The translations under genes were made by a program, and so were the position numbers. 64,000 nucleotides of DNA from Pseudoclavibacter sp. AY1F1 (GTDB lineage Bacteria; Actinomycetota; Actinomycetes; Actinomycetales; Microbacteriaceae). Under the pieces are notes generated by a model, which saw only the letters and a list, made by a program, of their open reading frames with translations, ran no database searches and was not told the origin of the DNA. The stretch lies in assembly GCF_002931075.1 (NCBI RefSeq), contig NZ_PSTQ01000001.1, positions 806,001-870,000 on the forward strand, written 5' to 3'. Below, piece after piece: positions 2,504 to 5,437 of the stretch (within the stretch, counting starts at the first letter, position 1; each line of letters opens with the position of its first letter).

Positions 2504-2567
2504 GGGGAACATCCGCCGCAGCATCGCGGTTGGATTGCGTGTACCCCCTCCGAGCCGAAAGGTCAGC

Positions 2568-3671
2568 ATGAGCCGTCTCTTGTCACCAGTCACCCTCCCG
2601 AGCGTGGAAGGCGACGGGCTGCCGCTCCGCAACGCGACCTTCCTGGCGCCCATGTGCCAGTACTCGGTGACGGAGCGTGACGGGCTGCCGACCTCCTGGC
2701 AGTTGGTGCATCTCGGAGCACGGGCCAGCGGCGGCTTCGGGCTGGTCTGGACGGAAGCGACCGCCGTGGTTCCTGAGGGCCGCATCTCGCCGGAGGACAC
2801 GGGCATCTGGAGTGACGAGCACACGGAGGCGTGGAAGCCGATCGTCGACTTCATCCACTCGCAGGGCGCAGCTGCCGGCATCCAGCTGGCTCACGCAGGG
2901 GGCAAGGCATCCACGTACCCCGCGCTCCCCGATGCTGAACGAGGCACTGTTCCCGAGAGCGCAGGGGGGTGGATAGCCGAGGCCCCATCGAGCAGCGATG
3001 TCTTCGGTCTTGCACTGCCAGCAGCGCTCAGCGTGGAGAAGATCGGCGAGCTCGTGGCCTCCTGGGGCCGCGCGGCGCGACGTGCCCACGAAGCCGGTTT
3101 CGACGCACTGCAGATCCACGCCGCGCATGGGTACCTGCTGCACGAGTTCCTCTCGCCGCGCTCGAACCAGCGCGAAGACGAGTACGGGGGATCGTTCGAG
3201 AACCGAATCCGCTTCGCCCTCGAAATCGTGACCGAAGTGCGACGCAACTGGCCAGCTGAGAAGCCACTTGCCATCCGGTTCTCTGGCGAGGACTGGATCG
3301 AAGGTGGTTGGACGATCGCAGAGACCGTCGAGCTCGCCACCCGCGTCCACAAGCTTGGTGTCACAGTGTTCGACCTGTCGAGCGGCGGCATCGGGGCGTT
3401 CACGGGCCCGACTGGGCCCGGCTACCAGGTGACGCTCGCGCGCGCCGTACGCGAAGCGCTGCCCCAAAAGGGCACCTTCGTGACGGCCGTTGGCCAGATC
3501 ACCGAGGCACGCCATGCCGAGGCTATCCTCGTGGCAGGAGACGCTGACGGCATCACAGTGGGGCGCGCCGCGCTCGCGAACCCAAACTGGGCCGTGCATG
3601 CGGCTGTCCAGCTGGGGGACGGACAGGAGCAGCTCGTCGCCCCGCAGTACTGGCGCGCAAGCATGGCCTAG
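2568..3671 (+). CDS. NADH:flavin oxidoreductase, Old Yellow Enzyme family (YqjM/NamA-like)
   Basis: FMN-dependent ene-reductase that would reduce activated C=C bonds of enals, enones or nitro compounds with NAD(P)H. I use ATG 2568 (367 aa), preceded by GAAAGG; an in-frame TTG at 2535 lacks a ribosome site. The TIM barrel shows APMCQYS with Cys30 (the position of the redox-tuning Cys in YqjM), HAAHGYLLHEFLSP with His184/His187 that bind the substrate, RFSGEDW, and the C-terminal FMN phosphate segment VGRAALANPNW. It runs towards the peroxide-sensor gene on the other strand; a role in handling reactive electrophiles would fit but is inference. Confidence 0.92.
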   Translation: MSRLLSPVTLPSVEGDGLPLRNATFLAPMCQYSVTERDGLPTSWQLVHLGARASGGFGLVWTEATAVVPEGRISPEDTGIWSDEHTEAWKPIVDFIHSQGAAAGIQLAHAGGKASTYPALPDAERGTVPESAGGWIAEAPSSSDVFGLALPAALSVEKIGELVASWGRAARRAHEAGFDALQIHAAHGYLLHEFLSPRSNQREDEYGGSFENRIRFALEIVTEVRRNWPAEKPLAIRFSGEDWIEGGWTIAETVELATRVHKLGVTVFDLSSGGIGAFTGPTGPGYQVTLARAVREALPQKGTFVTAVGQITEARHAEAILVAGDADGITVGRAALANPNWAVHAAVQLGDGQEQLVAPQYWRASMA

Positions 3672-3703: not shown

Positions 3704-4162
3704 TCAGGCCTCGTCGCGCGTGGCCATATCCCCTTTGGCGGTCGTGGAGTCGGCCAGGAGCTGCGTAAGGGTGTCCTTGAGGGCCTCGAGCTCGGTTCGG
3801 CTCCATCCGAGTTCCGCGATGACCTTGACGGGCACCTCGACGGCTTTGAGCCGCAGCTTGCGGCCAGCCTCAGTGAGTCTGATCTCGACGGTACGCTCGT
3901 CCGCTGCCCGGCGCTGTCGGGTGATGAGACCGGAGGCCTCGAGGCGCTTCACGAGGGGGCTGAGGGTTGCCGGCTCGAGGTACAGCGCTTTGGCAAGCTG
4001 CCCGAGCGTCTGGCCGTCGTCCTCCCAGAGCCCGAGCATCACGAGGTATTGCGGGTGCGTCAGACCGAGGGGCTCGAGGATCGGACGGTACAGAGAGATG
4101 ACGCTCCTGCTCGCAGCGGCGAGGGCGAAGCAGAGTTGCTTATCGAGAGCGAGGAGGTCCAC
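3704..4162 (-). CDS. ohrR: MarR-family regulator, one-Cys OhrR type
   Basis: Dimeric winged-helix repressor that in this family senses organic hydroperoxides through one N-terminal cysteine. The protein (152 aa from GTG 4162) begins near DKQLCFALAAASR, strongly resembling B. subtilis OhrR around its sensing Cys; Cys11 is the only cysteine, so it fits the one-Cys class. ITRQRRAADERTVEI is the wing. The GGAGG at 4164-4168 is only 1 nt from the GTG, so the start is not certain. The gene is divergent from a 79-residue protein with a perfect palindrome between them. No ohr peroxidase is adjacent, which is unusual for OhrR. Confidence 0.85.
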   Translation of the reverse strand: MDLLALDKQLCFALAAASRSVISLYRPILEPLGLTHPQYLVMLGLWEDDGQTLGQLAKALYLEPATLSPLVKRLEASGLITRQRRAADERTVEIRLTEAGRKLRLKAVEVPVKVIAELGWSRTELEALKDTLTQLLADSTTAKGDMATRDEA

Positions 4163-4197
4163 TCCTCCAGCGTAGCGGTATCGACGCAGGGCACAAA

Positions 4198-4215
4198 TAG
4201 TTAGTACACTAACTA
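4198..4215. promoter_or_regulatory. palindromic operator, probably for OhrR-type repressor
   Basis: TAGTTAGT-AC-ACTAACTA: perfect 8-bp inverted repeat with 2-nt centre, in the divergent gap between the OhrR-like gene and the 79-residue gene. It ends one base before ATG 4217 and overlaps the probable -10 box of that gene, so binding would block its transcription directly. Assignment to the OhrR homologue is inferred from position. Confidence 0.75.
4205..4210 (+). promoter_or_regulatory. -10 box (TACACT), probable leaderless promoter
   Basis: TACACT ends 6 nt before ATG 4217, which would place transcription start on the A of ATG. No ribosome-binding sequence precedes the ATG. The hexamer lies inside the palindrome at 4198-4215. 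Confidence 0.55.
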
Positions 4216-4216
4216 C

Positions 4217-4456
4217 ATGCCGAGCGACAGACTCCCCAACCCGTACAAGGGTCAGCCTGGATGGTGGAACCGACTCAACCAGGCTCTCTTCCCGTTCATG
4301 GGTCCTGCCCAGGTGGGTACCGGGGGAGCCGTGCGAACCGACCCCGTGCGAGCCCCTGCGGCCTGCCGCGACTGCGGCCACCCGTACTCAGAGCACGAGA
4401 TCCGGAGGGGCATTGGCGGCAACCAGCCGAGCAGCATCCTCTGCCCGCGCGCTTAG
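4217..4456 (+). CDS. small conserved-type protein with Cys-rich C-terminus, unknown function
   Basis: 79-residue protein I cannot assign a function. The N-terminal part is aromatic/proline-rich (NPYKGQPGWWNRLNQ, then LFPFMGPAQVG). The C-terminus has Cys50-x2-Cys53, His55, His60 and Cys76, arranged like a small zinc-binding site. There are no membrane segments or signal peptide. I have the impression that similar small proteins occur in other Microbacteriaceae, but have not checked. It is preceded by the palindromic operator and no ribosome site, so it is probably a leaderless transcript controlled by the divergent OhrR-like repressor and hence inducible by peroxides. That regulation is inference. 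Confidence 0.75.
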   Translation: MPSDRLPNPYKGQPGWWNRLNQALFPFMGPAQVGTGGAVRTDPVRAPAACRDCGHPYSEHEIRRGIGGNQPSSILCPRA

Positions 4457-4466
4457 CTCGTTCGCG

Positions 4467-4820
4467 TCAGAGCGACACGGCGAGCGCAAGTGAGGCGAGG
4501 AGAAGCATCCCGAGGCAATTCAGCCAGAACTCGCGCCCGAGGAACCTGGCACGCACATGTGCGACCGTGGCGCAGATGAAGTAGGCGACGACGCCCACGT
4601 TGGCAGCGAAAGCAACACCGGGAACCCAGATACCCACGACAAGTCCACCTGCGGCGAGCAACTTGATCACGACGAGCAGCCACCACCAGTCACGCGGAAA
4701 CTCGACGCCGTCCAAGCAGTCGCGGATGAACTTGGGCGGCCTGATCGACATAGCCGCGTCACCCGCGAGCACAATTGCGAGCACGAGGGTCGGCCACCAC
4801 GGATCCGGAACGAGTGTCAT
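4467..4820 (-). CDS. DoxX-like integral membrane protein
   Basis: 117-residue protein with about four hydrophobic helices (VLAIVLAGDAA, WWLLVVIKLLAAGGLVVG, FAANVGVVAYFICATVAHV, NCLGMLLLASLALA), the size and layout of the DoxX_2 family. The biochemical role is not known. Its ATG overlaps the stop of the upstream TetR regulator (TGATG), so the two are translationally coupled and probably co-regulated by that TetR protein. Confidence 0.75.
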   Translation of the reverse strand: MTLVPDPWWPTLVLAIVLAGDAAMSIRPPKFIRDCLDGVEFPRDWWWLLVVIKLLAAGGLVVGIWVPGVAFAANVGVVAYFICATVAHVRARFLGREFWLNCLGMLLLASLALAVSL

Positions 4821-5437
4821 CAGTGCTCCTTGCAGGCGCAGATCGCGGCGAAGGCGCCGCGAAGGTCGGTCGAGAGCGCCGCGGCGTCGACCGTGCGGCG
4901 GGCCGACGCGGTGAAGAGCAGCCCGACGTACGTGAAGTACAGCGCACCAGCCTTGGCCGCCGCCTCGTCAGAACTCGTGCACCCCCGCTCGGTGATCACA
5001 GCGCGAAACTCCTGGGTGAGCCCAGTCGCCAGGTCTGCAAAGAGCCGCGAGTCGTGGCCGCCGGAGACAAGGATGGAAGCGTAGACGCGCGCGAGATCGT
5101 CGTGGCGCGTGAAAAGGGACACAAACGGCGCAGTGAGTGCCACCAAGCGGTCGGGGCAGGCGCCTGACCTCCCCGCAGCGGAGATCGCTGTGGCGCGAGG
5201 GACACCACGATCAGCCACCCGCTTGTTGTGCTCCGCCTCGATCGAGCGATCGAAGACGCTCACGAGCAGTGCCTGCTTGTCACCGACAGCCATGACGGTA
5301 CCCACACTGACCTGCGCCGCGTCGGCGATGCCACGCACGGTTGTCGCGGCGAACCCCTCGTCCTCGAAGAGACGCTCGGCGGCGTCGAGCACGCGGGCTT
5401 GCGTCGCGCGCTTGGTCTCCGCGCGTGTTGCTGGCAT
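4820..5437 (-). CDS. TetR/AcrR-family transcriptional regulator
   Basis: 205-residue repressor. The N-terminal helix-turn-helix is clear: RVLDAAERLFEDEGFAATTV followed by IADAAQVSVGTVMAVGDKQA (about residues 15-58); the C-terminal half is the variable ligand-binding/dimer domain. It is the first gene of a two-gene operon with the DoxX-like protein. Two tandem palindromes immediately upstream (5454-5478) are good candidates for its own operator, implying autoregulation. The ligand is unknown. Confidence 0.9.
   Translation of the reverse strand: MPATRAETKRATQARVLDAAERLFEDEGFAATTVRGIADAAQVSVGTVMAVGDKQALLVSVFDRSIEAEHNKRVADRGVPRATAISAAGRSGACPDRLVALTAPFVSLFTRHDDLARVYASILVSGGHDSRLFADLATGLTQEFRAVITERGCTSSDEAAAKAGALYFTYVGLLFTASARRTVDAAALSTDLRGAFAAICACKEH

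Follow-up and report, generated by a model that had tools for sequence, protein, structure and literature searches.

The divergent gene pair and the palindrome between them

The window analysed here is the whole of a 64,000-nucleotide stretch of DNA from Pseudoclavibacter sp. AY1F1. Near its start, a gene for an OhrR-like repressor and a gene for a small cysteine-containing protein diverge from a short intergenic region, which holds a palindrome that we regard as a putative operator. The features of the locus are as follows.

3704-4162, minus strand: OhrR-like MarR repressor of 152 amino acids, GTG start, single Cys11 (PF01047, 6.9e-16)
4169-4174, minus strand: candidate -10 element TACGCT of the regulator gene, ending 6 nt before the GTG (from sequence)
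4181-4186, plus strand: candidate -35 element TCGACG of the small gene, 18-nt spacer, weak (read by eye)
4191-4196, minus strand: candidate -35 element TTGTGC of the regulator gene, 16-nt spacer, one base from the operator (read by eye)
4198-4215, no strand assigned: operator palindrome TAGTTAGTACACTAACTA, sole match in the window, sole exact copy in the genome, kept in relatives
4205-4210, plus strand: candidate -10 element TACACT of the small gene, inside the operator, ending 6 nt before the ATG (from sequence)
4217-4456, plus strand: small protein of 79 amino acids with the motif C50-x2-C53-x6-H60-x15-C76-P77 (open reading frame, motif and coding constraint)

An oxidoreductase of the old-yellow-enzyme family (2535-3671) converges on the regulator gene. 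On the other side, a DoxX-like membrane protein and a TetR regulator are both encoded on the minus strand (4467-5437).

One base lies between the end of the palindrome and the ATG of the 79-residue reading frame, and 35 bases separate it from the start of the OhrR-like gene on the opposite strand. When up to three mismatches are allowed, TAGTTAGTACACTAACTA matches the window at this position only, and it is found in none of 100 shuffles. The complete genome (4,096,156 bases, or 4.1 Mb, in 29 contigs) contains a single exact copy and one other place with 3 mismatches. A preliminary description of this DNA had placed a perfect palindrome between a one-cysteine OhrR homologue and a 79-residue protein, and had assigned to it the -10 box of the latter. 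Our sequence search bears out each of these points: the palindrome occupies 4198-4215, the regulator gene encodes exactly one cysteine, and the -10-like TACACT falls within the palindrome.

The regulator keeps the sensing residues of OhrR

The regulator is a MarR winged-helix protein, and the solved chains most similar to it are OhrR proteins (2pfb, with an E-value of 3e-36; 2pex; 1z91). The best NCBIfam model is the OhrR equivalog NF052638, a model named for Vibrio OhrR, which the regulator matches at 132.7 bits, below the cut-off of 200. We compared 100 distinct regulators, each encoded at a locus that also has the small protein. All of them have C11, Y25 and Y39, and 92 contain just one cysteine. 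By the solved-chain alignment, together with the accessible part of PMC5201249, the three residues align with Cys22, Tyr36 and Tyr47 of X. campestris OhrR, which that text ties to peroxide sensing. Their invariance makes it likely that the window regulator senses by thiol oxidation, and plausible that the small protein belongs to the organic-peroxide response. Position 15, which is Tyr in the canonical OhrR of the same genome, is Ala in 86, Val in 12 and Ser in 2 of the 100 regulators, so that sensing may differ.

The small protein is a conserved family with a likely zinc-thiolate site

The 79-residue reading frame is under coding constraint. Compared with four close relatives, its differences at codon positions 1/2/3 number 6/2/27, 5/3/26, 5/4/24 and 6/3/28. 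With a profile built from six sequences, we detected the protein in 204 of 299 Microbacteriaceae genomes; in an order-level sample it occurs in 27 of 297 genomes, 22 of them Microbacteriaceae and 5 in two other families. In a genome of the same genus (G234), the small protein is identical to that of Pseudoclavibacter terrae (L018, L010). A search for it on plasmids gave no match.

In an alignment of 111 members, from which two divergent ones (L104, L106) were left out, G29, C50, C53, H60, C76 and P77 are invariant, and N21, P30, G34, P51 and R64 nearly so. This invariant C-x2-C...H...C-P pattern makes a single zinc-thiolate site likely. In Pfam and NCBIfam, no family scores above its cut-off with the protein of the window. 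The 111 members together give weak matches in those collections, mostly to zinc hooks and ribbons (best E 7e-4, the Rad50 zinc hook), and a profile search of the PDB likewise gives weak matches, rubredoxins among them (best E 0.009). An AlphaFold model from six sequences is poor (pLDDT 70.7, pTM 0.35), and a fold search of the PDB with this poor model returned no match at E 0.001.

The two genes are linked across the family

We examined 115 loci that contain the small gene: the window's own, 5 from named relatives, 29 returned by the profile search, and 80 chosen from its list, a choice that leans toward better-scoring matches. An OhrR-like gene lies divergent to the small gene in 92 of them, beside it on the same strand in 9, and facing it in a single case (L084). 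No OhrR-like gene is in the stretch read for the remaining 13, several of which are without the operator too; part of the small-protein family is thus under other control. Members with neither regulator nor operator nearby include L026, L029, L033, L045 and L054. By eye, a reading frame beside the small gene resembles a TetR regulator in L026 and L029, and a membrane transporter in L045 and L054.

The association can also be assessed by genome. Among 60 genomes, the small protein is present in 38, a regulator scoring 190 bits or more in 40, and both in 37 (Fisher p 1.4e-11), counts that include one weak small-protein call (G018) and that, like the counts for Ohr given below, are confounded by phylogeny and genome size. 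In three of these genomes (G003, G019, G051), such a regulator occurs without the small protein.

A set of sister regulators scoring 186-199 bits (L232, L233, L234 and L239, from G003, G019, G051 and G014, respectively, that of G014 being a second copy) diverges from a different small protein, one with two likely membrane helices. These loci are without the usual operator, their best sites having 4 to 5 mismatches.

The operator is conserved and nearly confined to this locus

The Microbacteriaceae are soil and plant-associated bacteria. Across the family, the operator has the consensus GTTAGT-NN-ACTAAC. In 113 distinct regions upstream of the small gene, the best match has 0/1/2/3/4/5/6 mismatches in 13/36/20/25/10/3/6 cases. 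That is, 69 of the 113 regions carry a site with at most 2 mismatches, compared with 7 of 2260 shuffles, and 44 have only matches with 3 or more. Five intergenic regions of the Pseudoclavibacter type have GTTAGTACACTAAC in identical form between flanks that differ. The preliminary description had proposed to check whether the operator is kept beside homologues, and this is what we find. In a reduced genome of 1.4 Mb (G027, L235), regulator and small protein are retained and the operator has shifted to GTTTGTGCACAAAC.

We also sought TTAGTNNACTAA in all 299 genomes without reference to genes. This blind scan found the site in 106 genomes. Among the 75 sites that it listed, a part of the total, 51 immediately precede a small-protein match. 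For the 24 initially unexplained sites, we read stretches from 15 genomes, which cover 16 of them (one stretch holds two sites); 4 more sites proved to lie upstream of a small gene (L158-L161), which brings the number to 55 of the 75 listed. The centre of the site matters: of the listed sites with a purine-pyrimidine centre, 54 of 57 are at the small gene, as against 1 of 18 with other centres. The three purine-pyrimidine sites away from the family are L156, which adjoins what by eye is a GntR-type/ABC gene pair, and L157 and L162, where the stretches read contain neither small gene nor regulator.

Since the sites found blindly lie mostly at the small gene, the operator is a switch for little more than one locus per genome. 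And because it is conserved and tied to both genes, it is very likely that the regulator in the window controls the small gene, as the preliminary description had supposed in assigning the small cysteine-containing protein to this repressor.

Both mRNAs look leaderless

Leaderless mRNAs make up 33% of transcripts in C. glutamicum, where the -10 consensus is TANNNT (accessible part of PMC5401885). With start codons picked by rule (8 of 100 regulators have no usual start codon by this rule), 57 of 113 small genes have TANNNT at a distance of 5-8 nt from the start, and 6 of 113 have it 15-18 nt upstream; for the regulators, the corresponding numbers are 56 and 14 of 100. Moreover, the first in-frame start codon lies 3-5 nt behind the operator 14-mer in 33 of the 69 good operators. 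These spacings fit leaderless mRNAs, and both genes of the pair look leaderless. Bound at 4198-4215, a repressor would cover the small gene's -10 element, and a single base would separate it from the candidate -35 element of its own gene.

The genome has a separate, canonical ohrR-ohr system

The preliminary description called the palindrome an OhrR operator and stated that ohr is absent. The latter is correct for the neighbourhood, and no Ohr gene occurs in any of the 115 small-protein loci read. It does not hold for the genome, in which two genes score above the curated cut-off for Ohr; one of the two (L015) follows immediately upon another ohrR gene, of the canonical type. Upstream of this operon lies a classical OhrR box, ACAACTGAATTGT, which fits the boxes ACAATTNAATTGT and GCAACTNAATTGC given in the accessible part of PMC6034001. 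The accessible part of PMC5478616 gives no operator for the OhrR of M. smegmatis.

Ohr scores over the cut-off in 28 of the 60 genomes of Microbacteriaceae, and we read one ohr locus in each. An OhrR-like gene is present in 9 of these 28 loci, and ACAA-N5-TTGT, at 0 or 1 mismatch, lies upstream of it in 7 of the 9. By contrast, TTAGT-NN-ACTAA at no more than 2 mismatches is upstream of ohr or the regulator in none of the 28. In a quick maximum-likelihood tree, one branch (SH-aLRT 100) splits 100 regulators linked to the small protein from 10 ohr-linked rows, which include the genome's own OhrR twice.

By sequence, the window regulator is an OhrR-like paralogue that belongs to a distinct clade with an operator of its own. 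The label of OhrR operator is not upheld, given the classical box at the genome's own ohrR-ohr and the lack of window-type sites in the 28 ohr loci. Nor did the proposed search for the same palindrome at ohr elsewhere succeed, as the only exact copy in the genome is that of the window. We reject a reading of the regulator as canonical OhrR, because its operator is not an OhrR box and its clade is separate from the ohr-linked regulators. We also reject a MarR regulator of the CrtR type, whose TTAA motif (accessible part of PMC5401885) is unlike the operator.

A third set of OhrR-like genes, scoring 157-175 bits (G042:C5, G035:C2, G007:C1, G004:C2), adjoins OsmC/Ohr-like genes that score below the Ohr cut-off.

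Discussion

Taken as a whole, the locus is probably a dedicated two-gene module of Microbacteriaceae, composed of a redox repressor and a small protein. The OhrR-like repressor would bind 4198-4215 as a dimer, cover the -10 element of the small gene and crowd the -35 element of its own promoter, so that both divergent and probably leaderless genes are kept low. The signal would be an organic hydroperoxide or a thiol oxidant of a similar kind, which would oxidise Cys11, the only cysteine, in the pocket formed with Tyr25 and Tyr39, and so release the repressor. The small protein would then be made, most likely as a zinc-thiolate protein that acts in response to that oxidant.

It is important to weigh this module against other accounts of the same locus. 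The regulator may have kept the fold and the cysteine of OhrR while answering another signal, such as reactive sulfur, a quinone or another electrophile, or a bound metabolite; the small protein would then serve in that pathway instead of the organic-peroxide response. The loss of the canonical tyrosine at position 15, the separate clade with its different operator, and the presence of a canonical OhrR-Ohr pair in the same genome all speak for such a change, as does the claim, made in the title of PMC11211675, that MarR-family proteins sense sulfane sulfur. We nevertheless consider it unlikely, though worth serious attention, because C11, Y25 and Y39 are all invariant. Of the 60 genomes, 28 have a true Ohr, and the small protein is present in 27 of these; among the 32 without Ohr, it is present in 11. 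This distribution also leans toward a peroxide link, with the confounding by phylogeny and genome size noted above.

Autoregulation is usual for MarR-family genes, and the palindrome might serve that purpose only, the small gene being a passenger transcribed from the same region. The position of the operator makes this very improbable: it holds the -10 element of the small gene and, as described above, often lies 3-5 nt before that gene's start; furthermore, four loci with no regulator (L049, L080, L082, L083) keep an operator-like site with 2 or 3 mismatches upstream of the small gene. Most improbable is that the window protein regulates the genome's two Ohr genes in trans and uses the window site mainly for its own gene, since the palindrome has no other copy in the genome, an OhrR and an OhrR box are already present at the ohrR-ohr operon, and window-type sites at no more than 2 mismatches are absent from all 28 ohr loci.

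Returning to the two-gene redox module, the closest described arrangement is EstR-estC of Agrobacterium tumefaciens. As far as the accessible part of PMC5201249 goes, EstR is an OhrR paralogue whose divergent target, estC, encodes an esterase; it responds to organic hydroperoxide through Cys16, and it has its own palindrome, GTTATCGCGATAAC, unlike the OhrR box, with no cross-regulation with OhrR/ohr. The window pair shares with it an OhrR paralogue, a divergent target other than ohr, a palindrome of its own that is predicted to overlap promoter elements, and the sensing cysteine with two tyrosines. It differs in the operator sequence, in its target, a small C-x2-C...H...C protein instead of an esterase, and in its spread over the whole family Microbacteriaceae. 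Judged by anatomy, the window pair would work like EstR-estC upon another target. With the canonical OhrR-Ohr system, as seen at L015 and, in the accessible part of PMC6034001, in Streptomyces avermitilis, the regulator shares the repressor superfamily, a single cysteine of the reactive type and the pair of tyrosines; it differs in clade, in having no link to ohr, and in an operator that is not of the ACAATTNAATTGT type.

For the small protein, the accessible part of PMC7448276 offers a parallel in zinc-thiolate proteins that act on oxidation, namely Hsp33 and Ruc. The latter (Rv0991c of M. tuberculosis) is a redox-regulated chaperone with a cysteine-based metal site, under the stress repressor HrcA. 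The window protein would resemble Ruc as a small actinobacterial protein with a cysteine-based metal site, predicted here, under a stress repressor. Ruc, however, has four zinc cysteines, compared with three invariant cysteines and one invariant histidine here, so that Ruc and Hsp33 stand as analogies and not as fellow members of a family. Chaperone action of the small protein is thus a working model, by analogy only. In the literature searched, mostly titles and the beginnings of abstracts, we recognised no description of the regulator/small-protein pair.

More tentatively, and with considerable doubt about the whole, the small protein may represent an undescribed family of redox switches: a zinc-thiolate protein, derepressed by an oxidant and made from a leaderless mRNA, would itself be oxidised under the same stress, release its zinc and act as a chaperone, zinc buffer or thiol partner. 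An OhrR-like clade would have been recruited to this role across Microbacteriaceae, with sister regulators driving the two-helix membrane protein.

Within Microbacteriaceae, two lineages of OhrR-like regulators coexist, each with an operator and a target of its own. For a protein family that is widespread (204 of 299 genomes) and annotated without a function, the locus supplies a regulator with its operator and suggests the likely kind of trigger, all directly testable. Being almost confined to one site, the regulon could serve as a clean reporter of the oxidant, whichever it is, that the repressor senses.
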